NCBI RefSeq assembly: GCF_022201045.2
Contig: NC_068561.1
Coordinates: forward strand, 23,256,501 to 23,320,500
DNA: 64,000 nt
From: Citrus sinensis
Lineage: Eukaryota; Streptophyta; Magnoliopsida; Sapindales; Rutaceae
Direction: 5' to 3'
Part shown: positions 18,771-60,732 of the stretch, one piece after another
Layout: the number at the start of each line of letters is the position of its first letter
Position numbering within the stretch: the first letter of the stretch is position 1
Notes under the pieces: generated by a model
What the model was told of the DNA's origin: nothing
The model's input: the letters and a program-made list of their open reading frames with translations, nothing else
Database searches by the model: none
Position numbers and translations under genes: made by a program

Positions 18771-19795
18771 AGTTGTGTTGAAGTTGCTTCAGTTCATACC
18801 ATCAGCGCGTGGGCTATCTCTACCACATCATCTATATTCAACAGTTTGTTCACCTAGCAATGGGAAGAAAAATAGTTGATGAATATTAGAGAAGGCTCTT
18901 AGCTAGCATTTTCATTCTCACCACTGTTCGCTTCTCTAGAGCTATCGGTTATTGTTCAAATGATGTGATTGCCCCTTGATCTGTCATTAATCTTGTATCA
19001 TCCTCTTCTGATTGGTGGGATGGTCTTGAGGATGTATGTGCAACTTCAGAAGAAAGTCGACTGGTGGATGTAGACTGATCAGGCAAAGCTAAATGTGTCG
19101 TGTGGATGCCTGCGATATTTTCATATTTCGCTTTGTAAATTAATCATGGAATTGACTTGAGACTTAAGTCTCTCCCCAAATAAGGTGTGTGTTTATATAT
19201 ATAGAAATTTTTTAATCTCGGATTTTAAAATGTAAGAAAATTTGAGAAAGTTTTGAAACTGCACATATTTTGCTTTATAAATTAATCATGGAATTGACTT
19301 GAGACTAAAGTGTCTCCTTAAATAAAGTGAGTGTATAAAAAATTTTTAATTTAAGATTTTAAAGTGCGGGGAAATTTGAAGATATATATATATATATAGA
19401 TATATATATATATATATATTCTAGCTTTAGATCATTTCAAATTGATTGTTTCTTGGTTTTTGTTTGATTAAAGTTCCTAAACTACTATAAAAGGCAACAG
19501 TATTTTATGATTTAATACACTATGAAAAATGATAAAATAAATATAAAAGCCATTGATCTTCACAGATTAAAAAAAACCTAATTCATTCGGTTTTATGTGG
19601 CGGAGGCCATGACGTGGAAATGATAAGTTTACAGAGGTTATTTCGTAAGTGTATAATTCTGAGGGGGTGGTACGAAAATTTACTAAATGATAAAATGTCA
19701 TTACAGACCCTTCTCTTTCCTAAAATCTCTTTTGGCCTTTGGGTGATTACCGTTTAAGGAATGGTTATTTGCTAAAGAGAAGTTTGGCATTCTAA
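18771..19795. other. Spacer between AAR2 and the acidic-protein gene
   Basis: AAR2 3' flank followed by low-complexity DNA: a diverged direct repeat at 19128-19380, a TA microsatellite at 19382-19420, and the promoter of the next gene. No coding exon is seen. Confidence 0.55.
19128..19380. repeat. Diverged tandem duplication, unit about 130-140 bp
   Basis: The block beginning TTTGTAAATTAATCATGGAA and running through GACTTGAGACTTAAG to ATTTTAAAATGTAAG is repeated directly as TTTATAAATTAATCATGGAA ... ATTTTAAAGTGCGG. It is followed by a long TA repeat. The ATTTTAAAGTGCGG-AAA segment also occurs at about 36698-36715, so this may be part of a dispersed element. Confidence 0.5.
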
Positions 19796-21216
19796 ATGAT
19801 GGCCTGGACGGTGCGTTCCCGCCTTTCCCACTTTCCGTCACTCTTCAGAACCGCAAAATCTCAATCACCGCCAACACTTGCAAGGAGGTAAGTCTCTTCC
19901 TTTCACTACGCATATTGGTTGCTTTAGAGCTGTGGTTTTAGTTCTAAATTTCGTTGACAACTTCTAAAGGTACTTTTTGTTTCACCTGTCAGAATAGAAT
20001 CTCTCTCTGATTCCGTTGCTGGCAGCTCAGGAAATCATATTCTTGGTGGGTTTGGCTCAAATTTTCTCGGTTAGTAAAAAACCTGTTAAGAGGTTTTTGA
20101 TGGTGATGGAAGCTTTTTTTGTATTACAGTCTTGGTATTTGTAGAAAGTCCTCAATGAATGCATTCACTGAATCTTTCTGTGAAATTTCCTGTGAATATT
20201 TGATAAAGCTTTCATCTTTTATGCTTGGTATGCATTACAGTATCTTACAAGATAAGCATCCTCTGATTGGACTCATGACTTGAGGACTATTATCATTTGT
20301 CAGTGGGATTTTAGAGTTATCTATTTATGCTTGCAGCATGGATTTACTTGCTGTACATATGTATTTGGTCGTTCATCTTTGAGTTATATGCACATGTTAT
20401 GTACATATATTTGATTGTTTTGTAGTATCTCGGTCATATGCTCGTAATGGACGCAAACATTATGATCTGTTTGGCGATGCAAGACCAGGTGATAAGAATT
20501 TTAGGGACACTTGGAAGAAAGAGATTGACGAAGAGGATTGTGTGTGGACAGGAAGTGAAGATGAGAGTGACTCTGAGAAGGGTCAAAGTCGTCTAGAAAA
20601 GGAGATCAGGAAAGTCAGACAGAAGGCAAAGGAGCACTCAGACCTAATTGATGCTGATGACAGTGATGAGTTACACAGCGTGTGGTCTGGAAGTGATGAG
20701 GAGAAAACTCTCTGGACTGGCAGTGAAGGTGATGATGATGATGATATACCTACAGAACCCTACCCAAATGAAGCTAGTGACAAGTATATTGATAAATTAT
20801 TTGAGTTTGAGGAGAAACCTAAATATCGAACTATCTCGGAACTTCTGAAAGCTGAAAACGAACCAGAAGAGTTGTCCCCTGGAAAGCAAGCCAGGAAACT
20901 TGCAGTTGAGAATGCCTTGAAGAAATTAAAGAAAGGGCCAGATGGGCGCTACACCAATGTGTGGGAAGTCATGAGTGATATAGACATCTTAATAGGAGCA
21001 TTTGAAAATATTGTCTCTGGACCAGAGTATGAGGAGCTTAGAAAGGGTGGGCCAAAGAAATTGAATATGCAGTTTTTCAAAGATATACAGGCACGTATGA
21101 GAGATCCAAACTATAAATTCTCACCTGAGTTGAAGTTGAAACCGAAGAGCAAATTAGTTCCAAGAAAGAAATGGCAGAAGACACAATCCAGACGAAGGAA
21201 AGCACAAAGGCGCTAA
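19796..21216 (+). CDS. Acidic protein of unknown function, probably organelle-targeted (3 exons)
   Basis: Exons 19796-19887, 19993-20069, 20426-21216 join in frame to 960 nt (319 aa); a second in-frame ATG lies immediately after the first. The N-terminus (MAWTVRSRLSHFPSLFRTAK) is rich in Arg, Ser and hydrophobic residues with no early acids, as in mitochondrial presequences. A conserved-looking LFGDARPGDKNFRDTWKKEI precedes an acidic middle with three short repeats: VWTGSEDES (W97), VWSGSDEEK (W143), LWTGSEGDD (W153). The C-terminal half (about 190-319) is a basic helical region ending KKWQKTQSRRRKAQRR, which could bind RNA. I do not recognise the family and assign no function. The 3' part of the last exon is duplicated downstream as a pseudogene (24812-25105). 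Confidence 0.8.
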
Positions 21217-41418: not shown

Positions 41419-44400
41419 CTATAGTACCTTTAGTTTTTTACCTCGTAAACCATTCCAAAAGGCAGCGGCACTCACTGCCTTCTTCCCAGGAAGCTGAACT
41501 TCCAATACCTAGTTGAATACCAATGTAACATGATGAGCAAGTCGAAAGACAGGCTAGCATGTGCAGTTATTTTTCCACAATATCATAGAATATGCATTTC
41601 ATACTCAAAAGTCTGTCTAGATTACTGGAGAACAAGCAAAAGACATATCACATACCTCAAGCGCAGTACACTCTCCACATGGAACTACCAGTGCATCCTT
41701 TTTGAATGTGATGCCATCTACTTCATTGGTCTGAATGTTGGGGCAAACTCTTGTAGTAATTATCTTTAGTTCTACGATACTTTGCTGACCATTTCTGTCA
41801 TCCACGACCGCCATTTTAGCTCGTGTTCCTGGCCACCCTGCAAAGGCCCGAACCTAGAAGGCTGTGTATCATCACCACAAACCAAAATCATAATAAAAAG
41901 GGGCCAAGGTTACCTTATTATGAAGAACAACAGCTTCTTCATCGAAGGACAGCCATGACTCCTCAGTAGTTATCTACAAGAATGAAATCTAAAATTTGAG
42001 CGAAGTATGGGGCACTAAAAACCATATTAGGGCGACTCACCCTACTGTGGTAAACTAAATAAACACTCTTGATGATAGTACTTATCTATTTTAACAATTT
42101 TCTAATTCCACCATTTTCAATAAGCAAACGACATTATTGGGGAAAGATTTGCAGCCAAGTACTGCATGATACATCTAATACCACATCATCTGCTACTGTG
42201 TGCAAGTGAACTTTGAAAAAGATGACACTTGTTTTAAAAAGTTTTACCCAAACAAGAACCACTTCATAACCAGGAGCTACTCTGTTTAGAAAAGCAAGCA
42301 CGAGGTTTTACTCTAGCTCAGAGTAGCTCTCTGAAACCTCACAAGCGAACACCAGCAGAAAATATTTTACTGTTTAACCAACATATATGATGCCTTGACT
42401 TATATATATCAAGGAGAATTTTTATCCATCTCCAACACCAACACATGAAACTCAGAAAAGTCTACCTTTGGAGCCAAGGTGGCTTTAGAATCATCTTGAG
42501 GTTGTGCTTTCACCCTAGCTGACCCATCTAATATAGAAGGAAGCTCACGTATAAGAAGTTCAGAACCTGCATATATAAATAGGATTAACAATAACCAAAC
42601 CAAAGAGTTTATTGAATCTGCCGATAAGGTATGGTTCTATGGAAAAATTGAACAACAATATAAGTGGCAGACAACATGCTCGTTAAAGAACTTGTGCTGA
42701 TAAATCATGTATACAGCATTTTTAGGCGAGACAAACTAATACGCTGCAAGAGTGTTCAAGTACAAAAACTCAGACACAAAAAGATAATGTAGGTCCAGAA
42801 AATGCACAGATGCTCGAGGTAAGTGAATAGTAACAAAAAAGAGAATAGAACCACCTTCAGAAAAGAGCAATACTAGTAACTCTGGTGCCTGCATGCAAAC
42901 CAGTGTAAACATCAGTCAAGAATGCTTAAAAAGCATTAATCTCCTTTTAAGAAGAATGAATCACGTAGAAACCAATTGATAGCATTTAGTTCTTAGGTGC
43001 CATTCTATAAAATTGGGCCAAGCATTATGGATTAACTGAATCCTAAAAATCTTCTTTAAGTCATTAACACTTCAATGTATTCCACATAAACAATATCCGT
43101 ACCTTAATTTGGTCATCAACTTCCATTTTCTCCCGGGCAATGACAGGTCCAGCATCAAGTGCTCGGACGGAAAATGCCAGTGATACTCCTGTTTCTTTAG
43201 CTCCATCCTAATACAGAGGCTAAATGTACTTATACAACTTGCAAGGGAAGTATAACAATTCAAATATTAGATTAAAGACAAATTAAGCCACCTGCAATGC
43301 TCGTTGAACAGGAGCAGCACCACGATAAAGTGGCAGCAGACTGGGGTGTATATTAACAGTACCTGAGAGAATTACTTACACTTAAAACTTTGAGAAACTT
43401 CTATAGCAAATTTTCCGTTATACAACAAATAATAGCAATAGGTTTGTCACATGAAATAAATTTTTCTTTTTCATGATTGTCGATAACTCTCCCTTTTAAA
43501 ATGGAGATGTTGAACATTTTTATTTACTGGTGATTTATGACCAATAACTTCACGTTTAGTATCTAAAATCCAAGGAGTGGCCAAAGCCAACAAATGAGAC
43601 ACTGTACATAAAATAACTAGGCAATCACAATTTCAGAATTCTGCAATATGATGGAATTAAGGTTTCAATGGAAACAAAAGGAGTATCATGTGAACCAGTC
43701 ATTGCTGGCCAAAAAAAAAAATAAATAAAAATAATTAACAGAGGTTAGATTTCTTTTAAAAATTAGATTATGCCTTTGACTATGCAGACATTATTGCCCC
43801 TAATTAAGCTTTTATAATTATCTCTTTTCTGATAACTGCAGTCCAGAGCAATAGTAGCAACAAGTCCAAGAAGATTACACTGGCATCCTCCAATAATCAG
43901 AAAGGGATTATAAACTTTTGTACCTTCCAATAATCATATAAGGAAATATCCAGAACATTTTAAGGCTATTAGTGCAACCACAAATACAACAAGTTGATAG
44001 AAATGACTTGTTTATCTGGAAATTATCAAAGAAGCAAAATTCTCAAGATTGTTAGAAGAAGTATATTTCACTAACCCATTGGTGGAATATTGAGGAATTT
44101 GCTTGGTAAAATATTCCCATAAGCTGCTGTAATGCAAAGTTCGGGCTGCAGAGCTCTTAAATTGGACAAGAAAGCATCCTGCATAAAAATAGAAAATGGT
44201 TTATCTTCACCAAGTCGGGGATTCAAATGAAGAGAGAAATTCCAATGGAAACGATGTAAACAAGGTTACGAACGGAGAAAGAAAAACTTTCCCAGCTTCC
44301 TAGCTCAACAGACAACAGAAACTCAAGTTTAACATTATAATAGTGAAATTTCAGAAAGTCGTTCAAATATGTGTTAACATATACATAAAAACTTTAACAA

Positions 44401-45071
44401 CTTCAAGAAGCACACTGCTTCTTTATCCCTTGACTCCAGATAACAAACCAATTGATTATTCAACTCATAAAAGTTATTCAAAGCAGAGTCATCAATTACC
44501 TCACCAGCCCTTTCAGGCGTGAAGATGAGGTCAGCAGGAAAGCCTCTGTCAAGAGCATACTGCGCTACTGGAGAAGGCAACACCTTTCTACCTCTATCTC
44601 TTCTAGAAGGAGGCTGAGTAACTATTGCTGCAACCTAGACCATACAAAAAATGTAACCCATAGAATACAAGAACACAATACTTTGATTTGATGGTAACCC
44701 AAGAAGCAAAGAAGCTCTTTCGCATATCAATGCAACACAATGCGGCATCGTCAGCTAGATTAAGAGTGAGTTAAAGAAGCTGAAGAGCGAATGAGTACCT
44801 CGAAAATGGAATCGGGTGAGGAAGAAGCGTTGAACAGAGTGTCAAGAACATTGACAGACACCTAAAAGTAAAGACCAAGCCATTTCATGAGAAATTGAAA
44901 AAAGAAAAAAAAGAAAAAGAATTATTAGAACATTCGAAAAAGAGTTGCCTGAGGAGAGCCCAAGAAGACGAGGGGCTTTTTCCTCGAAACAGAAAAAGCG
45001 GAAGGTGTTGTTGATGATGTTGCCGGGCCTTTGAAGCAGAAGAAACGTCTTATCATCAACGAAGAATTCAT
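41419..45071 (-). CDS. Mitochondrial methionyl-tRNA formyltransferase (11 exons)
   Basis: Transfers a formyl group from 10-formyl-tetrahydrofolate to initiator Met-tRNA for organelle translation. Exons (minus): 44949-45071, 44799-44861, 44500-44634, 44076-44178, 43292-43362, 43103-43207, 42855-42888, 42466-42566, 41914-41973, 41656-41853, 41419-41508; 1083 nt, 360 aa, all phases consistent. The N-terminus MNSSLMIRRFFCFKGPATSS is presequence-like and precedes the Rossmann start LVFLGSPQVSVNVLD. Catalytic residues: Asn145 and His147 in NIHPSLLPLYRGAAP and Asp183 in ALDAGPV. The C-terminal domain (from about residue 250) includes VRAFAGWPGTRA and ends FWNGLRGKKLKVL. Intron 1 has a GC donor (CAG|GCAACT at 44948). 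Confidence 0.95.
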
Positions 45072-45811
45072 TTCTTTTGTCTTTTCGTCTTCAACGAGAC
45101 CAGAGTGAAGACTGAAGAAATTGGAACTTCATCCATAAGCTTAGTGACGGTGAGAGTGCTTTATTCAAAATGATATTAAAAATCCAATCTAATTTTTGGA
45201 GGTTTCCAACCTAATCATTCATTAATTATTAGATAAAGTTTTAATTATTTACCCTAAAAAAAAAAGATATTTTTCATTAAATTAATTATAAATTTCTTGG
45301 GTTAATGCTGCATATTTTTAGTTACTTAATCAAAGTCAATTGGAAATTATTTTTTTTTAAAGGAATTCAATTTGATTTAAGTTTAAATAAACTAGATGAG
45401 TTTTCAGCGAAAAGAAACAAAACCGAATGAAAAAGAATGTTTATTAAAGTTAGATTGAATTTTTTCTTTTTTTTTCCCCAAAAATTATGAATATACCCAA
45501 GATAAGCCGGATCATTTTTCAAAATATTTCGAGTGATTAAAACATTTCAAAAATATTGCGTATCTCGTGTTTTATTATTTAAGGGGGGAAAAAAACACAT
45601 AAAGCTCTGAATTTTTTGAGCCAGAAAACTGTGACATAATAGTATGGCTAATTTCACAAATGAATTATTATTCCCCTTCATTATTCAGCGGCTCAACTTA
45701 ACCCCCAATGTAGCATCTATGCTAATTACACACAGTGGTTGCACTGTAACTTACAAGTTGCATTCTAACACCCTACATCATCGGATGCTTTCTGCTTTAC
45801 AAGGACTTTGA
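45072..45811. other. Spacer between the formyltransferase gene and the HMG-SINA gene
   Basis: AT-rich sequence with several A/T runs. It contains the formyltransferase promoter and the 3' flank of the next minus-strand gene. Nothing else is seen. Confidence 0.55.
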
Positions 45812-48800
45812 TCAAGAACAGTCTAAACTAAATTCTGTAGAATTCCATATACAAACTTCCAAGTTTAGCTCCCCGAAAGAACCAAGAAAACGAGACGGGA
45901 TGAGAAGAAAATCCATTGGAGGAAAACCTTCCACCAGTCCAGGAAAATTCTCCGTCAATGATTTTAATCTGAGGCAGCTGATTCCTCTTCCTGCTACAAG
46001 ATCATACAGATACTTCACCTTTGATGAGCTAGGGCTAATGCAAGTTATCATTACTGTATTCCCAATATTTTCAATGACACACTTGATGAGGAGAAAGAGC
46101 ACACCATCTTCCTCTGCTTGGAGAACGAGGAATTCTTCATCAATCCTTAAAGAGATACTCAAAGGGTTATTATATCTAAATCGCCTTCCTGAATCCCAGT
46201 GTTTGCTGCTGAAGTGTAGTGACAATTGTTCTGAAGAGCCGACAAAGTTACAGGATAAAAGAGGGCATGAACATGGTGCATACATGCACGTTTCTTCATG
46301 GTCATTATTCTTGGTGTAATCCACTGTTTCATTGCAACCATACTCTCTGTTTCGGCAGACAGATCGGACAGAATCAACAACTGACTCAATGTCCCCACAG
46401 ACTACGCTCTGACTCTCAAGAAAATTTGGCATATCTACCTGTCGATGTATCCAAGAAATTTATTGTTCTAAATAGCAAATCACATCTTATAAGAACTGAA
46501 GCAAGGAATCAAACTCATCCTCAAATGAACTTATCAAATAAGTCAACATTCATTATTTCAAATTTGAGGGTTCCAATCTAGTAAACTGTCAATTTCATTA
46601 AGCCGACCCTAGTCCCCCCCATAGATAGCCCTTGTACATGAATTTCTGTGGTGTTTGCTTTACATTCTGGTGCAGGTCTCTCAATAATTTATTTATTTTA
46701 CTTACCATGCACTACACCTCATCCCACCCCCAAATTAAACTTATCACCTCCAAAGTTGCCATGTGGAATTGAACTCTTAACTTCTTGCTTTCAGTCTTTC
46801 GCTGAAAGAGGCCAAACCAACTGGATTGTAAACCAAAGGACCTCTAATTTTATTTATACTACTAAGTTTCTTATGTATCATAATCACTATCATGTTTTGC
46901 AAAGAATGACAAACAGCAATAAGCCCAGCCAAAAAATAGAATCACAACAGCTGGTAAACACTATGGTAGACATGACGTGCATGAGGGACTAGACTATTTC
47001 CCACTTTAATTTGCTTTTCCCTTGCAAAAATACTTATCATTCTCCCTATCAGCGTCAAGTGAAAGGTGGGCGGAAATAGGTATTGCATTCCAACATATAA
47101 ATTAGAAACGGGGGAGGGTGGAGTAGAGGAATTGACTACCTCATCTATAGCAATATCTCCATTTAGTTGTTCTTCGTTAGCCTACAAAATAGTCAAGCAC
47201 AAGATTTAGATTATTGCTGCATTGTACTAAGCAATAAAATGAAATATTAATGTAACTAGGTCGTTAAAAATCAAATGGATACCTCATCTCTGTTAGCAGG
47301 ACCATGCTCTCCAGTACTTGTTTTGCACAGTGGAAGACCACCTAGTTGACCTCTGTGCTCTGCTGACTCCATACCAAAACACCTCTCCTTGCAAATCACC
47401 TGCAAAGGACCAGCTAACTTAATAATTCATACATAATCTAAGGCAACATGCATTGTAAATGTAAGTGTACCTTCCCAGATCCATAGCCACCAAGCTCTTT
47501 TTCTCGTTTTTCTCTCTCAGTAATCTCTTCCTCTCCCCAAGAAGATAAGCATGGAACAACGGTTGGGGCCAGAGCACTAGACCCCTCAATAGAGATGCTC
47601 TCATAATAAAAAAGCTGTGGATATTTCAGCAACAATCTACGACAAATGAAAATAAATATAGACAAAAACATGCTTGCAGAGATAGTTCACCTGGAGAAAC
47701 AAAAGACAGCCACCAACAGCACGTTGCTTTCCTTGACGATAACGAGAAACCTCCCGAACTAGTCGGTCAAGTAAGAATTTACCCCAGTTGTACTGATGGA
47801 TAACATCCATATTCGTCAAAAAATGGAGGAATGAAGGGCTTACATCCAGTCTGGCAGTTGGGGATAGAAGTGTACCCAATGCATAGAGTACAAATGATCT
47901 TTTGAAGTCTTCTCCTGCTTCTGGAACTGCCAACCGTTCCTCTAGAAGGCGCACTGATATCCCATGATTTGTAGCATTATAACTATGACGCAAGTTGGCA
48001 ATTAAGTCATCAGGCCCTGAGTTCACCACATCCTTGCCGCAAGCTGCTAATCCCATTACAAATTCCACATCTCTTGGGGATAAAGGAATGCATTCACCAC
48101 AGATATCCAAGCTACGTCGTGTAGTATTAAACCTCTCCAGTAGCCAAAGGCACAAGCTACGACGAAGAGTTCGGCACCTAAGAACAAGGAGGCTGCCAAA
48201 TCCCATGCTTCTCACTGCAGCTCTTTGATCTGTTGTGAGGCGCTGTAGCACATTGAATAAGCGGCCAGGAGAGCATCTTGTGACTAGTTTTGTCTGCAAT
48301 CATGCAAGCTTTATGATTTTTCAGCTGCAGAACATCAACAGTGTCTAGAAAGTAAAATTACCTGTTTCCTTGGCTTTGGGGCACGGGCAGGAGCTGTACT
48401 TAAGTAATCATCCCACACTTCTCGAGCATGCCTAGTATATTTTGCTTTTTCCTCATGGCTCATTGACTTCCAAGCATGTGATGCTGCCTTTGTGGCCTGA
48501 AATAGAACAGTCATTATTTCCAATTATTTCCTTCAAAGCATTATATCGGAAAAGGAGACTGTCATCAATTTCAAATGTAAATCAAGAAGCTCACAGCTTT
48601 GAGGCCTGAGGACTCAGGATGGGAAGCACTGTACTCCTTAATAAATTCTCGGCTTCAAAATTCCAATCGATATGTAAGTATGGCAGTTACGTAATTAAAG
48701 AAGAATGAGCTAAGACAATGGATATTGCACTTTTAAGAAACTAATTTTTACCTAAAATACACCCATGAGCATGCAGGACGAGGAGTGCCAACTTGCTTCT

Positions 48801-49352
48801 TCTTTTTCTTCTTTTTTCTCTTCCCATCTAGTGCATGCTCTTCTGCATTTTTCTTTACCAATGCAGCATCTGCTTCACTTGGTACCTAACATATATTTTG
48901 CATATCAAAAACTCAAGCAAATACTTTACAACATAATACTTGATGCTTCAACATAATAAATAGTATCACACTATGGGGCACATAAATAAAGCTGCTTTAG
49001 CCAATATAAAGCATTCCTCAAGAACAGCAAGCTCTTCTGGATGGTACCTTAGGACATGCTGTCCAACATTGTACCAATGATTTTGCGATCATCCCATAAT
49101 TCTCTTTCTTATACTAATCAACCCAACACTTTTCAAAGACAAAACAAAACATAAACTCATACTGACACATTAATTAAACAACTAAAACACGTACAAGAAA
49201 CCTTCCTAAAAACATGCTTTTGTGGGTTGTACCTTATGCTGTTAAAAGTTGTACCTTTATCTGATTAAGTTTAACAATTTATTGAACAAATAATTCAAAG
49301 CACATATACAAACTAAAAAGAGAGTTTAAGAAAAAAAGAAAAAAAAAACCAT
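45812..49352 (-). CDS. HMG-box + plant-mobile-domain-like + RING-less SINA domain protein
   Basis: Proposed exons (minus): ATG at 49350-49352 (tentative), 48752-48885, 48595-48652, 48362-48496, 47691-48293, 47471-47614, 47283-47399, 47140-47181, 45812-46438. They keep frame throughout and give about 620 aa. Residues 24-32 are a Lys/Arg run, a likely nuclear signal. About 38-100 is an HMG box (WVYFSREFIKEYSASHPESS, then HAWKSMSHEEKAKY). About 111-360 resembles the region of plant-mobile-domain/Ulp1-type proteins (IPLSPRDVEFVMGL, NWGKFLLDRLV, CLLFLQLFYYE). Residues 413-620 are a SINA (SIAH) zinc-finger and TRAF-like domain (CRNREYGCNE, HEETC, CSCPLLSCNF), but no RING precedes it, so ligase activity is unlikely. 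Function unknown. Alternative: two adjacent genes, with the SINA exon separate. Confidence 0.65.
46640..46850 (-). mobile_element. tRNA-derived SINE in an intron of the HMG-SINA gene
   Basis: On the minus strand a box-A-like TTGGCCTCTTTCAGCG is followed about 30 bases later by AGTTCAATTCCACATGG, a box B, and then GGCAACTTTGGAGGTGATAA. That is a tRNA-like head followed by a non-tRNA body as in plant SINEs. Limits are approximate and no target duplication was identified. Confidence 0.5.
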
Positions 49353-50485
49353 TTCAGTAAGATGACGAAAGCTTGCAATTGACGCGACCAGGAAAAGAAG
49401 ATGAGACCACAGAAGCCAAATTAGGGTTAGGATTTGGGTTCCAAAACTGGTAATTGAGAATCAAGTGCCCATAAAATGGATCTAGAGATGACAGAATTGG
49501 ATCCTTCGCCAATCTTCTTCGCGTCTGCTCTACAGAGTCGCGGCAATTTTTTTCTCATGCTGTGAGGTGTTGTACTTTCAGTTGAATTTTGATTTTGGTA
49601 ATGACATCAGTGATCCCTATTTTTTTATGTTTTCTGATATGAATGCATAGTTTTTCCAATTTTGTCAATAAGTTCCCTGCTGGGTGCTGATATGGGTAAA
49701 CTACACTTGAATCCTTATTATTTAGAAAAAATAAAAAATTCCCATAGTTTTCAAAATCAAGCAATTAAATCCCTATTGTTTGTAAAATCATCACACAAGT
49801 TCTTGACCTGATCTCGTTAGTAGATTTTCACACCGTCAGGGTATATACGTCTTTTTATTGATACGTTTTTCAGATTCTTGACAAAATGATTGTTAAACCT
49901 CCAACGTACAGGGAAAAAGAAAAGAAAAAACTCTTTTAATGTTTCTAAATATGTAATCCTTTCTTAGAAGCATATTCCATTTGTTTATAAAAAAAAAAGT
50001 AATTTTTTTTTAATTTTTTACGATTCAAGATTCAATGGCAATTACAATATGTTTTTTTTTTTTCGGTGTTAAACGTAACTTAAGCCCTCTTACAAAATAA
50101 TGTTACCACCAGCTTAATAAAAAATAATGCTACACGAACTTAATAAAAGTTATTAGAATTTGGGTTCTGATTTTGCGCGTTGGAAAATGGAGGTTAAGTT
50201 AAATGTTTGTTCTGACAATTAACCAAATGCTCCATTCAAGCTTATACTTATATCCACTAAAATTTTAAAGAATGTAAAGGGGCAGCAAAAAAGCATGCAC
50301 ACCCATCGCTATAATATTTGGGTTTGCTTTTTGGAGAGATCTAACTCTGATTACAGATTAAAAGATATTACAGGTAAATAAATTTAAAAAAAAAACATAT
50401 ACAAATCCAAGTCAAAGCAACGAGAGGAGATTAACTTATTATTCTTAAGGTAATTCAATAGGAATACGTGTAGATAACAATGCAA
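49353..50485. other. Spacer between the HMG-SINA gene and SINA-like gene B
   Basis: Contains the presumed 5' UTR and promoter of the HMG-SINA gene, then AT-rich DNA and the 3' flank of gene B. No coding exon is seen. Confidence 0.5.
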
Positions 50486-52024
50486 TTAACGTAACCAATG
50501 TGGTAACCTATCCTTAAATATGCAGATTTTCAAATTAAGCCGCCCATCAGTAGCATCCAATAGCCATGGCACCAAAGGGAAACCCAATTTAGGAAGGTTA
50601 TCAAGCTGCTTTTTAGAGCTCGAAATGGCTGACCTGAATGTAAGGGTAGAGACATTATTGGATCCGAAACTTACACTGATCTTATATTCGTTTCTCGCCT
50701 CTCTCGATGAAGAAATGCAAGATATCGACAGTCCATTTTGCTGTTGATTACTTCTTGCATTGTGGAGAACGAACAATATGTTGTCATCTCTCCCTTCTAG
50801 AAGAACTAGGAACTTGTCATTCTTAGCATCTAGCCTAATACTGAAATCTTGATCGTACCGAAATAGTACGGATGAATTTTGATGTTGAGCTCTGAAGTGT
50901 TGATACAACTGGCTGGATGATCCGAGGAAGTCGCATCCCGAAAGAGGGCATGAGCATGGGGAATGTTTGCATGCCTTTTCGTGATCATTTTTCTCAAGGT
51001 AACCCAGCGTTTCGTTGCAGCCGTATTCAGCATTCTTGCATGAAACTGATTTCACCGATTCTAAAAGTTTCTCAATCACTCTGTTGCGAGTATAAGCAAT
51101 TGGCGAACGGTCGAAGGGACAGCTGTCATTCTTAATTTTGCTTCGGCAGGTTGTGCACACCATATGCCCATTTTCACACTGTATGCATATATAAAGATTA
51201 ATGTTATCGGACAGTACTATATTTCATAGAATATACATACAAGAAACTTAGTTGGTCCAACTCGGCAATCGAAACAAAATATTCAACATGTTGTTTCTCT
51301 TTTTTTTTTTTTTTTTGGTGGTTGTTGTTGTAAATTAATAACAACTGTTGGGAGTCAAAATATAATAAAAGAATAAAAAGTTAATTCGAGATTTTTTCGG
51401 TGTATTAAATTATATGGTATCCGAAGACCACATTGAATCTGACTAATTCAGATTCGAGCCGGGTAGGACTATTAGGACGGCAAAACTCTCCCAATAAATA
51501 TTTAATGCTGCTGCATTCTCAAGTCTCGAACCGAGAACCTTAATTAAGTTAGAACAGCCCTATATCAATTGATCTACGCTCTTGTTGGTTGAAGCTAATT
51601 AGAAATTGTAAAACACTAAAACATCTACGCTCTTGTTGGTTAAAACTAATTAGAGATTGTAAAACACTAAAACATATAGAATTTTTCTAATATCAGGAAC
51701 TCAGATCATGAATTTCACTCACATGCATGAACAATTTTTAATATACAAATTTTCTGTTTGCTCCACTAACCACACTATGTAGGCACTCTGATTTTTTTCA
51801 TTGATTTAAAAAAAAAAATTCATTAGGAAATAATAATCTAAACCCAACTGAAAATTGAAGAAAGCAAAACAAAACAAAAGAAACAAACAAACCTGATAAA
51901 CAGGAGGGCGGAATGGTCCAAAGCAAATGGGGCAATCAAGAAAATCTGAATCGGCTAGAGTTATAGAAACAGATCCACTCCTACAAACTCTTTTGGCAGC
52001 TGGTGCTTCATGCTCTTCCTGCAT
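50486..52024 (-). CDS. SINA-like E3 ubiquitin ligase, gene B (altered RING)
   Basis: Exons (minus) 51893-52024 and 50486-51178; 825 nt, 274 aa. Exon 1 starts MQEEHEAPAAKRVCRS and leads to SVSITLADSDFLDCPICFGP. The intron falls just before the CENGH codons of the RING, the usual site in this family (also used by gene C). RING ligands seen are CPIC, CENGH and CTTC, but the final pair reads CPFDR where CPxC is expected, so the last cysteine is replaced by Asp. The SIAH finger follows (CKNAEYGC, HEKAC, CSCPLSGC, HFRAQH) and then a beta-rich TRAF-like domain to the end. SINA proteins normally pass ubiquitin to substrates bound by the C-terminal domain; this one may be weak or a decoy. An upstream non-coding or missing exon is possible. 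Confidence 0.82.
51375..51592 (-). mobile_element. tRNA-derived SINE in the intron of SINA-like gene B
   Basis: On the minus strand it starts ACCAACAAGAGCGTAGATCA, has a box B GGTTCTCGGTTCGAGACTTG, and continues through CCTACCCGGCTCGAATCTGA to a T-rich end. This is the layout of a plant SINE. The 5' edge is duplicated together with host flank (51573-51674). No clean target duplication was found. Confidence 0.55.
51573..51674. repeat. 51-bp tandem duplication at the SINE edge
   Basis: Two adjacent 51-bp units (51573-51623, 51624-51674) both begin TCTACGCTCTTGTTGGTT and end TGTAAAACACTAAAACA, with a few mismatches. The unit joins the SINE 5' end to flanking DNA, so it arose after the SINE inserted. 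Confidence 0.8.
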
Positions 52025-53619
52025 TCTTCGTCTGTCCTCAATGTTATTCTGAAGAGTACAAAATATAAGTTGTATTACTAAAGTTATCTCTTTTAAGATT
52101 ACTATGACTCTTTTTTTTTCATATATATAAACACTAATCACCAAATCTTAAAAGAATCCTATTTCAACGGAAACTGGTATTCTGAAATAATTAAAACACC
52201 AACCAGTTTGAATGATAAAATTCTAAAATTAATTTTTATTAATCAAGTTCAGAGAGATATACTTTAAATTTAATACGGTAGATCCCATGTGTAGTTCTTG
52301 TTCTAAAGTAAGAGCCACTACATTAAAATTAAAAGAAAAATGTGTATAGATCAGACTCATCACCTCAACATGATTAATTAATAGGATTGATTAATAAAAT
52401 ACAATCAAGTGGGTTCATCAAGTAGGTCCTACTGTGGAACACTAATTCTTTATTTTCAAGTTATAATTTGTAACATTAAAGAGGTTACAGAGGTAGAACA
52501 ACCAAAGTCTAACTCCACTAGTTAATGGACAGCTTTTCAAAGACTTCTATATATATATATATACACGTAATCAATCGAACACTGTTTAATCAAAATATAA
52601 TCACATATCACATGATACAAATAGGTATTATAATTATTTAAAATAATTAATATTAATCACTTGAAAATCTTAACATGAGTATGTTACAAATTTTTTTTCC
52701 AGACAAAACAACAATGCCGTAAGCTTTACATACGTCAAATGATGTGATCAAATGATGACTGGTAGCATTACGTGATAACTAGTAAAGCCAATTCACTGAT
52801 ACCACATATGATCGACGATAAGTTCAAATAATAATAATAATAAAAAGCATTACAATCCTCAAACCTAGAAAAGAATTAGTGTTCTGCTTAGGGGTAAGGC
52901 TGATACCACTTATATATATTTAGAACTTGTCTCTTTTTGGTGTGGTTCTGCTTAGGGGTAAGGCTGCAGAAGTACAGAAAAAATCAATGATTGGATTCCT
53001 AAAATCAAGGCTATCCTCCAATTAAATTATGAAGCGATTCGAGAGAGATATAAAAATCTGTAAGATAATCTCTTGATTGCCCTTTAAGCATGTTTTGGAA
53101 TGCGATGGATAAAGATTCTTTTCTTGTTTTTTGCCTTTTTGTCTTTCTCCTCTGGCATAGTTATCGGCTGGAAGAAAGACAATTAATAGTGGATAGAAAA
53201 TACGGACACCGTTTTTTTGTTTATTTTTAAAAAATAAAAAGTTTAAAGCACTGTGTCCATGCACCAGTTGCACTTGGCTCACTAAGTTATTACATGGAGG
53301 GAGCCTAATTTTCGGACTCTCGATTAAAATTGGTGCAAGTGGTAGTCCATAGCTCATAATAAAAAGTATCTCAATTCTCCTTTCACTTTCAAATTCACAA
53401 TGTTACCCACTACCCAGAAGCCAGAAGTGCTTAAATCTCAACAGAATACTTGCAAAACAGCAAAAGTCACTTTCATAGATTGCAATTTGCTTCATGTTTC
53501 TGTTTTAGATAATTAACAAATAAACAGTGCTGCTGCAAATTGCAACCAAAGTTAACGTTTCAAAGGAGAAGTTTCAAGCCGATAATAAAATTAACAAACT
53601 GCATGAAGCAATTACAACA
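52025..53619. other. Spacer between SINA-like genes B and C
   Basis: AT-rich DNA with a TA microsatellite (about 52550-52562) and a direct repeat of GTTCTGCTTAGGGGTAAGGC at about 52881 and 52945. No supported exon. Confidence 0.5.
52881..52968. repeat. Short direct repeat, two copies about 63 bp apart
   Basis: GTTCTGCTTAGGGGTAAGGC plus TG occurs at about 52881-52902 and again at about 52945-52966, separated by AT-rich sequence. Origin unknown. Confidence 0.6.
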
Positions 53620-55757
53620 TTACTTCTTTGGATGCTGAATGCGGACCTCCAGATTCAGCTGCCCGTAGGAACCAAAGAAATCAGATGGAACTAAAAGCGA
53701 CGCCACTGAAGGAGGGTTATTTTCATCCCAGTTTTGGATACTCTTTGTGCAAGAATTGAATTTATAGGCAGCTCCTCCTGACTTAGCCACAATAGAGTAG
53801 ACGATCCCTCCTTTGCATGGTGGGGCAATGCAATTTACAGAGATTCTATAGCCATGAGGTTCAGTACTATTGTTGAGAATAAACAGATCGCCATTTTTCT
53901 CTTCTTGAAGAAATATAAGGTCATGATGAACACTTAAGGTAATGCGTAAGACTTTATCATACACAAACTCTTCTGCAGCATGCTTGTGTACACCCCTGAA
54001 ATGTTGGTATATCTGATTGAATGAGCCAACAAAGTTGCAGGCTGCAAGAGGGCAGGAACACCGTGCATGGTGGCAAGCCTTTCCATGATCATATTTCTTG
54101 CTATAACTCATTTTTTCCTTGCACCCATGGTCTTCATTTTCACATGTTACTTGAATTGATTCTAATACTTTCTCCATGGCTATACTACGGCTATGGCCAA
54201 TGGGTAAACGACAGCTGGGGCATTTATTCATAAGTTCAATGCAGCAACGATTGCAAACAATATGCCCATTTCCACACTGAATTTGCCATGCATACATACA
54301 AAAGGATATCATCAGATTGTATTTAGTATCTGATATAATGTACAGTATGGAAGAATATCAAGAAGAAATTAGTCAAAAATATTGAACAAATATATGGATA
54401 CTTATAACAGTGCCAGATATAGTACAGTATTTGGTACTGAAAAACTTTATAATTTCTATTGATGTATTGGAGAGTCAGTAACAGCCACACCCATGTCAAT
54501 TAGGGAAAAAAGAAGAAAAAAAATCCATGAGAAGTACAATACACATCCACAACTCCGCAGTCCATAAGTATTAACAATTCCTACATAAAAAAACAAAAAT
54601 ATGTAAACCCAGTGTATGCATGCAAAGAAATAAATATTAAACACATAGCTAATTACCTAAAAGTGTGAATAGTCATGAATCAAATGACTTACTTAATCCT
54701 TTCACAAACAAATATCTGCAGATTCTGCATCCCTTATTGATACTAGTAATGTGGTGATCTACCTCAGCAACACTTAACAACGTAAATATGAAAGAACTAA
54801 ATGAAATAAAGCAATGAAGTACGGTAGTACACAGAACAAAATGACATACACAGAAGAAAGCACTCTAGCCACCGCGAAGCAAAATAAGTTGAAAATGAGC
54901 ACTTCTTAACATTCAACTCAAGAAAACAGTTGTTCACTGTAGCTAATTAATTGTGCATCGATAAACAGTTTTCCAAGTTACAACAAATCAACATGCATAA
55001 ATGTTCTTCAAGTGGCAAAATAAGATTAAATCATAAAAATTTACAGTCAAATGAGATATAAGCAGGGCACATTTTGGACAAAACAGCAGATTTACATAGA
55101 AATGATCTAATATTCAGTTGAGCCATCAGACAACTAAAGAAAATGAGAGATTTACAATGCAAACTACCTTTAGGTCTCAGGTAAGACTAGAAAGAATAGC
55201 TACTACATGAACACAAAATCCCTAAAAGCAACAAGCTTCTTTCTTTATGTGAGGATACTAAAAGCACAAGAAACACCACAATAAAACTCAAAACCCCAAA
55301 ATATCAAAGAGGCGAATGAAAATCCGCTTCACTTCATGCATACCAAACATAACCAACTGACATTATCTTCAATTCTTCATAAAGGAAAGAACTTTCAAGA
55401 GGAAACATACCTGATAGACAGGAATAGTCAAAGGCTCATAGCAAACGGGGCAATCAAGAACTCTGGATCGTTTAGTGTCACAGAAACCGGCCCATTGTTA
55501 CTACGTTTCACATGATCAGCCGTCTTGTTTCCTTTGCCGCCACCGCCTTTATCAGCAGCTCTGGTTTCTTGTGCACGTGCTTGACGTTGTACAGTAGGAA
55601 CTTCTTCTTCTTCTTCTTCTTCTTCTACTTCTTCAGAATATTCAGACTCATCAAGATCTCGTTGACTGCTCCTTTGTCTCTTTGGAAACCTGCTGCTACT
55701 TGCTCCTCCTCCTCCTCCAACTGCATATACTAATCCAAACCTTACGTTTTTTTCCAT
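53620..55757 (-). pseudogene. SINA-like E3 ubiquitin ligase, gene C (frameshift before the RING)
   Basis: Exons (minus) 55411-55757 and 53620-54276. Exon 1 encodes a Gly/Ser-rich start (MEKNVRFGLVYAVGGGGGAS), an acidic run (SEEVEEEEEEEEVPTV) and the family motif PVSVTLNDPE. There one base is missing compared with gene B: GAT CCA GAG TTC TTG ATT GCC against GAT TCA GAT TTT CTT GAT TGC. The shift destroys the first RING cysteines, and exon 1 is 347 nt where 348 would keep frame with exon 2. Exon 2 is open and well preserved: CGNGHIVCNRCC, CPSCRLPIGHS, the SIAH finger (CENEDHGC, HGKAC, CSCPLAAC, HFRGVH) and a TRAF-like end. Either a recent null allele or an assembly error; without the shift it would be a complete 3-domain ligase. 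Confidence 0.8.
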
Positions 55758-56363: not shown

Positions 56364-59300
56364 CTCCCCCTCAAGCTGGTGCATAGATGTCTTGCATACC
56401 CAACTTGTCTAGGAATTTTGTAAATGCCCTGCTTGAAATGGCCTTCGTTAAAATATCTGCAAGTTGATCTTCTGATCGAATTTTCGGCAGTTCTAAGATT
56501 TTTTCATCTAATTTCTCCTTGATGAAAAATCTATCTACCTCCACATGTTTTGTTCGATCGTGTTGAACTAGGTTATGAGCAATATCTCGTGCAGCTTTGT
56601 TGTCACAGTATAGTTGTATTGGTTGTTGTGATGGATAGCCCAAATCGTTTAAGATAAAACTTATCCATAGCCCTTCACATATCCCAAGGGCCATGCCTTG
56701 ATATTCTCCTTCAGCGCTCGAACGGGCAACGACATGTTGTTTCTTGCTTCTCCATGTGACAAGGTTTCCTCCCACAAAGGTAAAGTATCCTGAAGTAGAG
56801 TGTCTATCACTAACTGACCCGGCCCAATCTGCATCAGTATAAACTTCTATGTTGCTGTAATCTTCATTTTTGGAAAATAAGATTCCTTTTCCTGGATTTG
56901 TCTTCAGGTACCTCAGGATCCGCATTACTGCTTTCATGTGTTGTTCTCCGGGATTATGCATAAACTGGCTTACAACACTCAATACATAAGCAAGATCTGG
57001 CCTTGTGTGGGACAAGTACATCAATCTTCCAATCAGCCTTTGATATCTTCCTTTGTCTACTGGAACTTGGTCTGAAGTAATACAAAACTTCAGTCCTTCT
57101 TCTATTGGGGTGTCAATAGGCTGACAAGCTGTCATTCCCGTTTTGTGTAATAGATCTAAGGCATATTTCCTTTGAGACAGAAAGATTCCTCCCTTAGATC
57201 GAGAAACCTCAATTCCAAGAAAGTATTTTAAGGCACCTAAATCCTTCATCTCAAACTCTCTTGACAAGTACTTCTAAAGAGCCTCTGTTTCTTCCTCGTC
57301 GTTGCCTGTAACTACCATATCATCCACATGGACAATAAGGGCAGTGATTTTACCTTGTCGTTTTTTAATGAATAAGGTATGATCTGAATTGCTTTGGTTA
57401 TACCGAAAACGAACCATAGCCTTTGTGAATTTCCCGAACCATGCTCTTGGGGATTGCTTCAACCCATACAATGATTTCTTCAATTTGCATACTTTCTGAT
57501 TGAGTCGTTCTGGTCCACTGCATCCTGGTGGCAAATCCATATAAATTTCTTCAGACAAGTCTCCATGGAGGAAAGCATTCTTTACATCGAACTGTTGCAC
57601 TGGCCAATCCAAGTTGACTGCTAATGATAATAAGATACGAATAGTATTAATTTTTGCTATCGGTGCAAATGTATCAGTATAATCAATCCCGTAGGTTTGG
57701 GTGTAACCCTTAGCTACGAGTCTTACTTTGTATCGTTCAATAGAGCCATCTGCTTTGTATTTTATAGTGTAGATCCATCGACAACCCACTGGTTTCTTTC
57801 CTGGTGGAAGATCAACTAGTTCCCATGTTTGATTTTTTTGAAGAGATCTCATTTCATCATTCATAGCCGCTTTCCACTTTGGATCTTTTAAAGCTTCCTG
57901 CACACTGTTAGGAATAGATACAACAGATAATTGATTCACAAATGACTGATTTGATTCTGACAAGCGATGGTTAGACACAAAATGACTCATAGGGTATTTG
58001 ACTCTACTAGAGAAGTCAGGCTCATATGTGGGTTTAGGGATACCTCTATTTTGACACTGGGGAAGAATTCTTCTGATTGGACTTGTGGTAGGAACATCCT
58101 CTGCAGACGATTGGTTAGGTATTTCTTCATGTGACTCATTCTCGATTGCAGTTGTGTCTGAGTTATTGTGCTCCCCAAATGTGTCTTCACATATCTCAGC
58201 CTGCGAATCATCACCTTTTGCTTTTCCAGTATCTTGAAGGTTTACTATCTCAATGAAAGATTGACTTTCTTCAGGTGGAAGATATGTAAGAGTATGAATT
58301 TCCTCTTCATTATACTCCCCTTGAAATTCAGACTCTGACAAGTAGTACATGATATCTTCATGAAAAACGACATCCATGGTGATGTATATTTTTCTTGATG
58401 GTGGATGATAGCATCGGTATCCCTTTTGATGTAAGGAATACCCTACAAACACATAACGTAGTGCTCGAGGAGATAATTTGTCTTGTTGCGGCAAATGAAC
58501 GAAGGCAACACAGCCAAACACATGTGGGGGCAGATTCGGCACATTTGGTGACATAATTGCATCATTCAGAACTTGGAAAAGAGTCTGGAATCCAAGGGAG
58601 CTTGATGGTGTTCGATTGATCAAGTATGCTGCGGATGCCAGTGCTTCTCCCCAATAAGATAATGGCATGTGGGCTTGGATTAGTGATGCTCGAACAACTT
58701 CTAGTAAATGTCTGTTTTTTTGTTCAGCAACACCATTTTGTTGGGGTGTCCCCACACAAGTGGTTTGATGGACAGATCCTTGTGATTTCAGAAACTGTTG
58801 AATTGCTGTGCTCATATACTCGCCTCCATTATCAGTATGTAGAACTCGAATTTGTGTCTGAAATTGAGTTGTCACCATCTTATGAAATCTTTGAAATAAA
58901 GAGTTTACTTCGCCTTTCGATTTCATCAGAAAAATCAATGTCATTCTGCTACAATCATCAATAAATGAAACAAACCGACGAGCACCTCCAATTGTAGAAA
59001 CTTTAGATGGCCCCCATACATCAGAATGTACTACCATAAAAGGAACTGGATTTTTATTTAAGGACAATGGAAAAGTAGTTCGATGGCTTTTTGAAAGTTC
59101 ACAAACATCACATTTAAAGTTACAAACATCAAATTTCAGAAACAAACTAGGAAATATTTTTTTTAAGTAACCAAATGACACATGCCCTAAACGTCTATGC
59201 CATAACCAAATTTCTGATTTCCCTTTTTTTATGGAACTATCTGCGACTAGTGCGGGGCTTAGCTTTCCAGTGTTTTTTGATGACATCTCCAAGTAGTACA

Positions 59301-60732
59301 AGTTGCCTCGTCTAATACCATAACCAATTGTTTGCTTCGTTTGGATGTCCTTAAACACACAATGATCAGGCCAAAAAATTACAACACATGATAAGTAAGT
59401 GGTTAATTGAGACACAGATAAAAGATTATAATCTAAAGATGGAACAATTAACACAGCGTCTAAATTTAATTCATTTGTGAGTCGTAAAGATCATTCCCCA
59501 ATAACTGAGGTTGTGGTTCCATTTGCAGTGGAAATATGTTTTTGTGAAGATGGTTTCAATTGAGAAACTTGTCAAGAATCAAAAGTCATATGATCAGTTG
59601 CCCCATAATCAATTATCCATGTACTATTAATAACAAGTGTAAGAGTTTTAAGGGCCTTACCTGGACTGACAGAGGCTGCGATTTGCACTGAAGATTCTTT
59701 TCTAAGATCTGTAGTGGATGTGGATTCAGCTACTGCAGTTTTTGATCCATGCTTGGTGTTCTTCTTTCGAGTATCCCACCAATCAGGATATCCAATGATT
59801 TCAAAACATTGTTCTTTCGTATGACCCTTCTTTCTACAATGAGTGCAATGGAGTGATGACTTATCAACAAACTTCCTTTGAGGCTGCTGTCGTGCTATCA
59901 TAGCAGACGTTTCTAAGTCGACCTTCTTGCTTAGTTTGCTTTGCCGTATATCTTCTCTTCGAATCAGAGAATAATATTCTTCTAAGTCTGGGATAATGTC
60001 TTTTCGTAGAATTTCTCCACGAACTTGGTCAAATTCTTCATCTAGCCCAGCAAGAAAAATGTGCACTCTCAATCTTTCAACAGACCTTCTGTATATTACA
60101 ACATCTTCTGGATCCTTCATGACCACTTTATCTCGGTGATCAAGTTCTCGAAATATTTCAACCAATTCTCCATAGAATTTTGAGATTGGTTGTCCATTTT
60201 GCTTGGTAGAGAATGCCTTCTGGTTTAGAGTGAAAACTTGTAATTCATCGCTTTCATCATAGAAGGCTTTTGATAATGCATCCCAGATTTCGTATGCTGT
60301 AGGAATTCGTAAATATCGCTTCATGATCTCCGGAGACATGGATATGAGTAACCATCTTTTTACTTTTTGGTTCTCACTATACCATTTCTCATATTCCTTT
60401 GAAGATTCCTCAAATGGCTTTGTGCTGCTACGAATATATGAGAGTTTTTCTCTTTCTGCAAGATGCATCTCCATTATGTGAGACCAAACATCGTAGTTTG
60501 TCTTAGTGAGGATAATTCCAGCATTAAATACTCCATCAGATTGAACAGATTGAATGACAACAGGACTAGATTCAGTTGGAGTTTTCTCCATTTTTTTTGT
60601 TTTTTTCCTTTTCTTTTTTCTCTTTTTTTTTCTTTTTTTTCTTTTTTTTTTGTTTTTTTATTTGTTTTCTTTTTTTTTGTTTTTTTTTCGTCTAGATTGA
60701 AAGAAGAAAAAAAATAACCTTTTTAGGTAACA

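Follow-up and report, generated by a model that had tools for sequence, protein, structure and literature searches.

We describe a candidate gene in the Citrus sinensis genome in which the HMG-PMD unit of a transposon accessory gene, that is, an HMG box followed by a region like the plant mobile domain (PMD), appears to have been joined to a RING-less SINA half, and we put the probability of such a host-transposon fusion at this locus at about 0.55. What would be new at this locus is the SINA junction; transposon-host fusion genes as a kind are already known, and vertebrate host-transposase fusion proteins are the counterpart of such a plant protein. The window, meaning the whole stretch of 64,000 nucleotides that was analysed, corresponds to C6:23256501-23320500, and the genome searched comprises 300 Mb in 11 contigs.

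Gene Model and Predicted Domains

The candidate gene runs from 48885 to 45812 on the minus strand as eight exons in one uninterrupted frame, which bears out the chain of eight phase-keeping exons proposed in the initial annotation, where the strand was left unnamed. With a tentative ATG exon placed in front, the resulting nine-exon model (Table 1) encodes 620 amino acids in 1,863 bases without stop or frameshift. All eight introns are GT-AG, seven being of phase 0 and one of phase 2. The start is tentatively placed and is the least certain part of the model: neither exon 2 nor exon 3 offers an in-frame ATG or any methionine, and the start codon at 49352 is therefore a proposal.

Table 1. Exons of the candidate gene, its last intron and the exons of the two neighbouring SINA copies (positions in the window)
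Feature	Position	Strand	Content
Exon 1 (tentative)	49350..49352	-	ATG followed at once by GT donor; 5' UTR would lie upstream of it
Exon 2	48752..48885	-	Lys-rich stretch; first part of HMG box; phase 2 at end
Exon 3	48595..48652	-	Middle of HMG box; enters in phase 2, leaves in phase 0
Exon 4	48362..48496	-	End of HMG box
Exon 5	47691..48293	-	PMD-like region, 201 aa
Exon 6	47471..47614	-	PMD-like region continued; last residues GGYGSGK
Exon 7	47283..47399	-	Linker; self match only in genome search; in-frame coding score highest of the three frames
Exon 8	47140..47181	-	Acidic linker, 14 aa
Intron 8	46439..47139	-	701 bp; no detectable RING exon
Exon 9	45812..46438	-	SINA zinc finger and TRAF-like region, RING-less, stop codon; array member S0
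S1 exon 2	50489..51178	-	Second half of RING, zinc finger, TRAF-like region
S1 exon 1	51893..52024	-	First half of RING; spliced S1 scores 47.3 bits for Sina_RING
S2 exon 2	53623..54276	-	SINA neighbour
S2 exon 1	55411..55706	-	RING exon split across two frames (frameshift)

By Pfam, the predicted protein carries an HMG box (HMG_box PF00505, residues 36-102, profile positions 2-67 of 69, 35.2 bits against a cut-off of 25.4), a PMD-like region (PF10536, residues 184-337) whose 34.7 bits fall just below the cut-off of 34.9, and a SINA zinc finger (Sina_ZnF PF21361, residues 432-492, 45.6 bits against a cut-off of 32) that scores 47.5 bits when exon 9 is tested separately. The earlier reading of these three parts in a single frame largely holds, with the PMD score as given. 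Comparison with solved structures returned SIAH1 and SIAH2 at residues ~432-492 and HMG proteins at the N-terminus, the best of the latter being NHP1 (E 1.3e-4). Pfam gave no match to Sina_TRAF or to Peptidase_C48 (Ulp1) in the candidate protein, and none to Sina_RING in either the protein or exon 9. The TRAF-like end was detected with a profile of six array members (exon 9 included), which matches the substrate-binding chains of SIAH1 and SIAH2 from end to end, 10 of the 11 matches reaching position 213 of the 222 in the profile. Of the features of SINA/SIAH proteins, the zinc finger and the TRAF-like domain are present in the predicted protein and the RING is absent from it. AlphaFold models were too poor to use (pLDDT 37.7 for exon 9 with two paralogs from the window, 43.7 for exon 5 alone).

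The SINA Half and Its Tandem Array

Exon 9 belongs to a tandem array of seven SINA copies on the same strand at C6:23302315-23330308, four of which lie outside the window; an eighth, weak SINA match lies on C2, and the GTDB genomes searched with the SINA exon held no relatives. The copy most similar to it is S6 (44% identity), which lies at the opposite end of the array. All six other members, S1-S6, possess a first RING exon, and the intron after it has a phase-0 acceptor ahead of the second RING half; the start of exon 9 is also in phase 0. In the candidate gene, both halves of the RING are wanting. A search of 45.8-50.48 kb with the first-half RING exon of S1-S6 did not find it, the best of 127 weak matches having a chance-like E of 0.052, and exon 9 shows a 24-column (24-residue) in-frame gap in the second half of the RING, with a few unrelated residues (VDMPNF..) before it. 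The RING had been annotated as replaced by unrelated sequence; its absence is confirmed, and it was lost, not swapped for another domain. Two full SINA genes had been placed just upstream; the one at 50.5-52.0 kb has an open frame, and in the one at 53.6-55.7 kb the RING exon is broken across two frames. Decay is found across the array (window 50486-55720, L037 and L038): besides the S2 frameshift, the RING exon of S4 contains a stop, exon 2 of S5 contains two stops, and the RING exon of S5 has lost a cysteine. Between S2 and S3, at window 57277-59490, lies the frame of a Copia-type retrotransposon (RVT_2 186 bits, integrase core 50 bits).

One Gene or Two

The junction between exons 8 and 9 was assessed by splice-site and coding scores. 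The acceptor of exon 9 at 46438 is the top-scoring AG in 47139-46380 and falls in the 97th percentile of the 290 AGs in 4.2 kb, and the donor of exon 8 falls in the 89th percentile of 246 GTs. The coding model, trained without exons 7 and 8, gives them +0.52 and +0.40 bits per codon, and read-through beyond exon 8 scores -0.10. The codon usage of exon 9 is weak, at 0.05 bits per codon in its own frame and 0.09 in the best frame. Judging from splice signals and coding scores only, exons 2-9 on balance probably form one fusion gene; since the splice scorer draws on background frequencies and the coding model is small, the balance tilts towards one gene but stops short of proving it.

The strongest rival, which we consider a substantial minority possibility, is that a domesticated HMG-PMD gene ends in 47139-46439 (AATAAA at 46854) and that a separate RING-less SINA gene starts there, with TATAAATA at 46858 as promoter, perhaps a 5' UTR exon to 46706, and translation from the ATG at 46432, six bases inside exon 9. 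Intron 8 indeed holds a donor stronger than that of exon 8 (GTAAGT from 46705) together with TATAAATA from 46858 and AATAAA from 46854, which would allow exon 9 a promoter and a 5' UTR exon of its own, and a stand-alone RING-less SINA protein is known in SINA2 (PMC6048857, available text). Against this, both motifs are short, AT-rich words, with AATAAA present at four places in the intron, the C-terminus that read-through past exon 8 would add is non-coding in composition, and exons 7-8 and the acceptor of exon 9 suit a gene that continues. Intron 8 also contains, at 46699-46824, a 126-base diverged low-copy repeat with one other copy (74% identity to C8:8824208); inspection by eye shows a stretch resembling a tRNA-type B box, and we take it to be perhaps an old SINE.

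The HMG-PMD Half and MULE Accessory Genes

The PMD exon (exon 5) has many relatives in the genome. Among the 150 of 175 candidates that were scored, at least 129 match rows reach E <= 0.001, some of them being pieces of the same gene; the best non-self match among the rows scored has 39% identity, and many rows elsewhere in the genome contain stops. The HMG exons, in contrast, match only themselves bar one row at E 0.93, as do the linker exons 7 and 8 without exception. IMG/VR, searched with the PMD exon, yielded no relatives.

Four PMD relatives were extended to 9.9 kb each (L039, L040, L041 and L042). Three of the four contain a MULE transposase ORF on the opposite strand (L039 100.4, L040 102.8 and L041 108.5 bits), two of these three ORFs with a FAR1 domain above the cut-off; L042 showed no ORF of >= 140 aa that resembles a transposase. 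The one Ulp1-type ORF scanned, that of L041, matches Peptidase_C48 at 32.2 bits, and by eye similar Ulp1-like stretches are present in L039 and L040. In L039, L040 and L041 the transposase and the HMG/PMD-like/Ulp1 accessory gene on the other strand form a convergent, tail-to-tail pair.

The exon plan upstream of the PMD exon was read by eye in eight loci, L009-L016, from a fetched set of 14 non-self loci that also includes L017-L022. In these eight loci the first exon stops in phase 2 within helix 1 of the HMG box, a short exon follows, and a phase-0 intron precedes the (F/W)K motif (KxxxxFK-type), which is the plan of the candidate; the candidate differs in having an intron between HMG and PMD that L009-L016 lack. 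The boundaries LFLQ|LFY and GGYG..|V were likewise found again, by eye, in relatives. L010 and L014 are among the relatives with stops. When four spliced transposon N-termini were scanned with Pfam against the HMG cut-off of 25.4, one passed (L014, 29.4 bits), two fell short (L011 23.8 and L015 21.3 bits) and L012 gave no HMG match. Among host HMG_box exons above cut-off (n = 4), all four run through profile position ~31, an intron site in the candidate and its relatives, and three also run through position ~12, as read from single exons with intron-to-profile positions mapped by hand. Five scanned pieces of transposon relatives that hold the PMD region gave no match to PMD, and two transposon relatives matched DUF1985 at ~13 bits, far below cut-off.

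From these sequence comparisons, HMG and PMD are most likely one transposon-type unit that is common to FAR1/MULE accessory genes and was not joined at this locus. The HMG part of this reading draws on place, intron phase and Pfam, the candidate HMG exons giving no direct match to the HMG regions of the transposons at E <= 1. Since HMG-like and PMD-like exons occur together, in the same phases, in MULE accessory genes, only the junction of exon 8 with exon 9 would be new. Three separate captures are rejected on the same co-occurrence. The annotated assembly at this locus of three parts, HMG, PMD and SINA, is not supported, the first two being already paired in MULE accessory genes of this genome. 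What survives of the exon capture then proposed is that a transposon-related, putatively DNA-binding N-terminus adjoins a RING-less SINA half in frame, at a phase-0 junction like that of the SINA RING intron, which is what capture of an exon requires.

The direction of the exchange may also be reversed, an old host HMG-PMD gene having been captured by MULE elements; this would fit a fusion at this locus and alter only its history, and we regard it as rather unlikely. The HMG score is higher here than in the transposon copies tested (35.2 versus at most 29.4 bits), and capture of genic PMD-C by MULEs has been proposed (PMC5418596, in the text available), but the transposon form is multi-copy and stands before Ulp1, whereas the form here is single-copy.

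Surroundings and Coding Constraint

Transposon Ulp1 pieces compared with the window gave a best E of 0.38, away from the candidate gene. Transposase and Ulp1 pieces together gave, apart from the PMD exon itself and the match described next, nothing under E 0.09 on the window. At 19601-19813, 26 kb from the gene, there is a weak match to a MULE transposase tail (E 0.003) that contains stops and is perhaps due to chance or an old remnant. In the search for terminal repeats, the inverted repeats found in 44800-50500 were all short and mostly A/T tracts. Because no transposase or Ulp1 match lies nearby, the candidate gene looks domesticated and outside a living element, and a living transposon is rejected on this absence together with the short A/T nature of the inverted repeats. 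Downstream, at 44071-44265, a formyl-transferase-like exon (22.4 bits against a cut-off of 26.1) marks a gene on the same strand.

Exon 5 (201 aa) and exon 9 (208 aa) are both free of stops, and their paralogs in the genome reach 39% and 44% identity, respectively. Codon position 2 is less diverged than position 3 against every paralog compared (seven for exon 5 and six for exon 9), a pattern that, with the open frames and the paralogs, exceeds what chance would give. Position 3 is the most diverged in 13 of 13 comparisons (6/6 for exon 9) and position 2 the least in 12 of 13 (5/6 for exon 9), the exception being S0 with S4, where positions 1 and 2 stand at 0.432 and 0.443. When exon 9 was altered at random in simulation, at 10-25% of its sites, only 5.5 to 0.15% of the copies kept a frame free of stops. 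On these simulated rates and the codon-position pattern, a plain pseudogene is rejected. That the locus holds decaying pieces, namely a dead accessory gene beside a SINA pseudogene with neither making protein, is therefore very improbable: the in-frame stops or lost RING cysteine of S4 and S5, the frameshift of S2 and the stops in many PMD rows elsewhere speak for it, but the intact 1,863-base frame, the rarity of stop-free simulated copies and the divergence at codon positions 3 and 2 all speak against it.

Proposed Origin, Function and Relation to Known Systems

For the favoured host-transposon fusion we propose the following course. A FAR1/MULE accessory gene encoding HMG box, PMD-like domain and Ulp1 SUMO protease, or its host progenitor, would be the source, and would have landed within intron 1 of one SINA array member or shortly upstream of that intron, so that the phase-0 donor of the accessory gene could be spliced to the phase-0 acceptor of the second SINA exon. 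The SINA zinc-finger/TRAF-like half, itself RING-less, would then stand where the Ulp1 catalytic half was, and exons 2-9 would be spliced to a single mRNA. It is possible, and we hold it tentatively, that a single expressed protein results in which the SUMO-protease half has been exchanged for a RING-less SINA half, making it a chromatin-tethered ubiquitin adaptor. In such a protein the HMG box may bind or bend DNA and, with the PMD-like domain, may hold the protein on DNA, leaving the SINA C-terminus to bind substrates and to dimerise. In rice, SIAH proteins both homodimerise and heterodimerise (PMC8786996, available text), so ligase activity could come from dimers with RING-bearing neighbours; the C-terminus might thus pair with RING-bearing SINA proteins such as S1, leading to ubiquitination of chromatin-bound targets, or alternatively the protein might act as a RING-less decoy that blocks ubiquitination. 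By analogy with these systems a DNA-tethered, RING-less SINA adaptor acting through heterodimers is conceivable, and as a specific mechanism we consider it doubtful.

The closest known systems each share part of this architecture. With the Ulp1-bearing accessory genes of the KI-MULE/KIU type, the candidate has in common an HMG-like box before a PMD-like exon and the intron phases, as these are seen in the MULE loci here; it differs from MULE accessory genes in being single copy, in having no Ulp1 or transposase found nearby and in being followed by a SINA half. In KI-MULEs, Ulp1 is in reverse orientation to the transposase (PMC2528002, available text), an arrangement also present in the MULE loci of this genome. 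According to the available parts of the respective papers, MULE-borne Ulp1 genes include KIU genes, which are associated with related elements losing their silencing marks (PMC13317346), and PMD-C genes are present in MULE elements (PMC5418596). Plant SINA/SIAH-type E3 ligases of the SINA-like subfamily share with the candidate the SINA zinc finger, the TRAF-like region and membership of a tandem array; the candidate lacks both halves of their RING and, if fused, has the HMG-PMD unit as its N-terminus. Arabidopsis SINA2 is likewise a SINA protein without a canonical RING; the text available describes it as N-terminally truncated, makes no mention there of an HMG-PMD part, and reports E3 activity in vitro, perhaps via a B-box-like finger (PMC6048857). 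PMD proteins fused to protease, kinase or phosphatase domains occur, and MAIL3, which combines a PMD with a PP7-type phosphatase, resembles the candidate in joining a PMD to a host enzyme-related domain (PMC7156037, available text); compared with fusions of the MAIL3 type, the partner here is SINA, an HMG box is present and the PMD lies just below cut-off. The literature listed, part of it as partial text, gave no description of an HMG-PMD-SINA protein, of an HMG-SINA fusion or of an HMG box in Ulp1-bearing MULE accessory proteins, and returned nothing that pairs the HMG box with the plant mobile domain, the SINA family with HMG, or SINA-like with citrus.

The MULE loci also point to some Ulp1-bearing accessory proteins with an HMG box in front of their PMD-like domain, which bears on how these proteins find DNA. 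If the fusion is real, the locus would be an exon-level case of a DNA-transposon accessory gene becoming a host gene, in which phase-0 introns on both sides would permit the swap of a SUMO-protease half for a target-binding half of the ubiquitin system.
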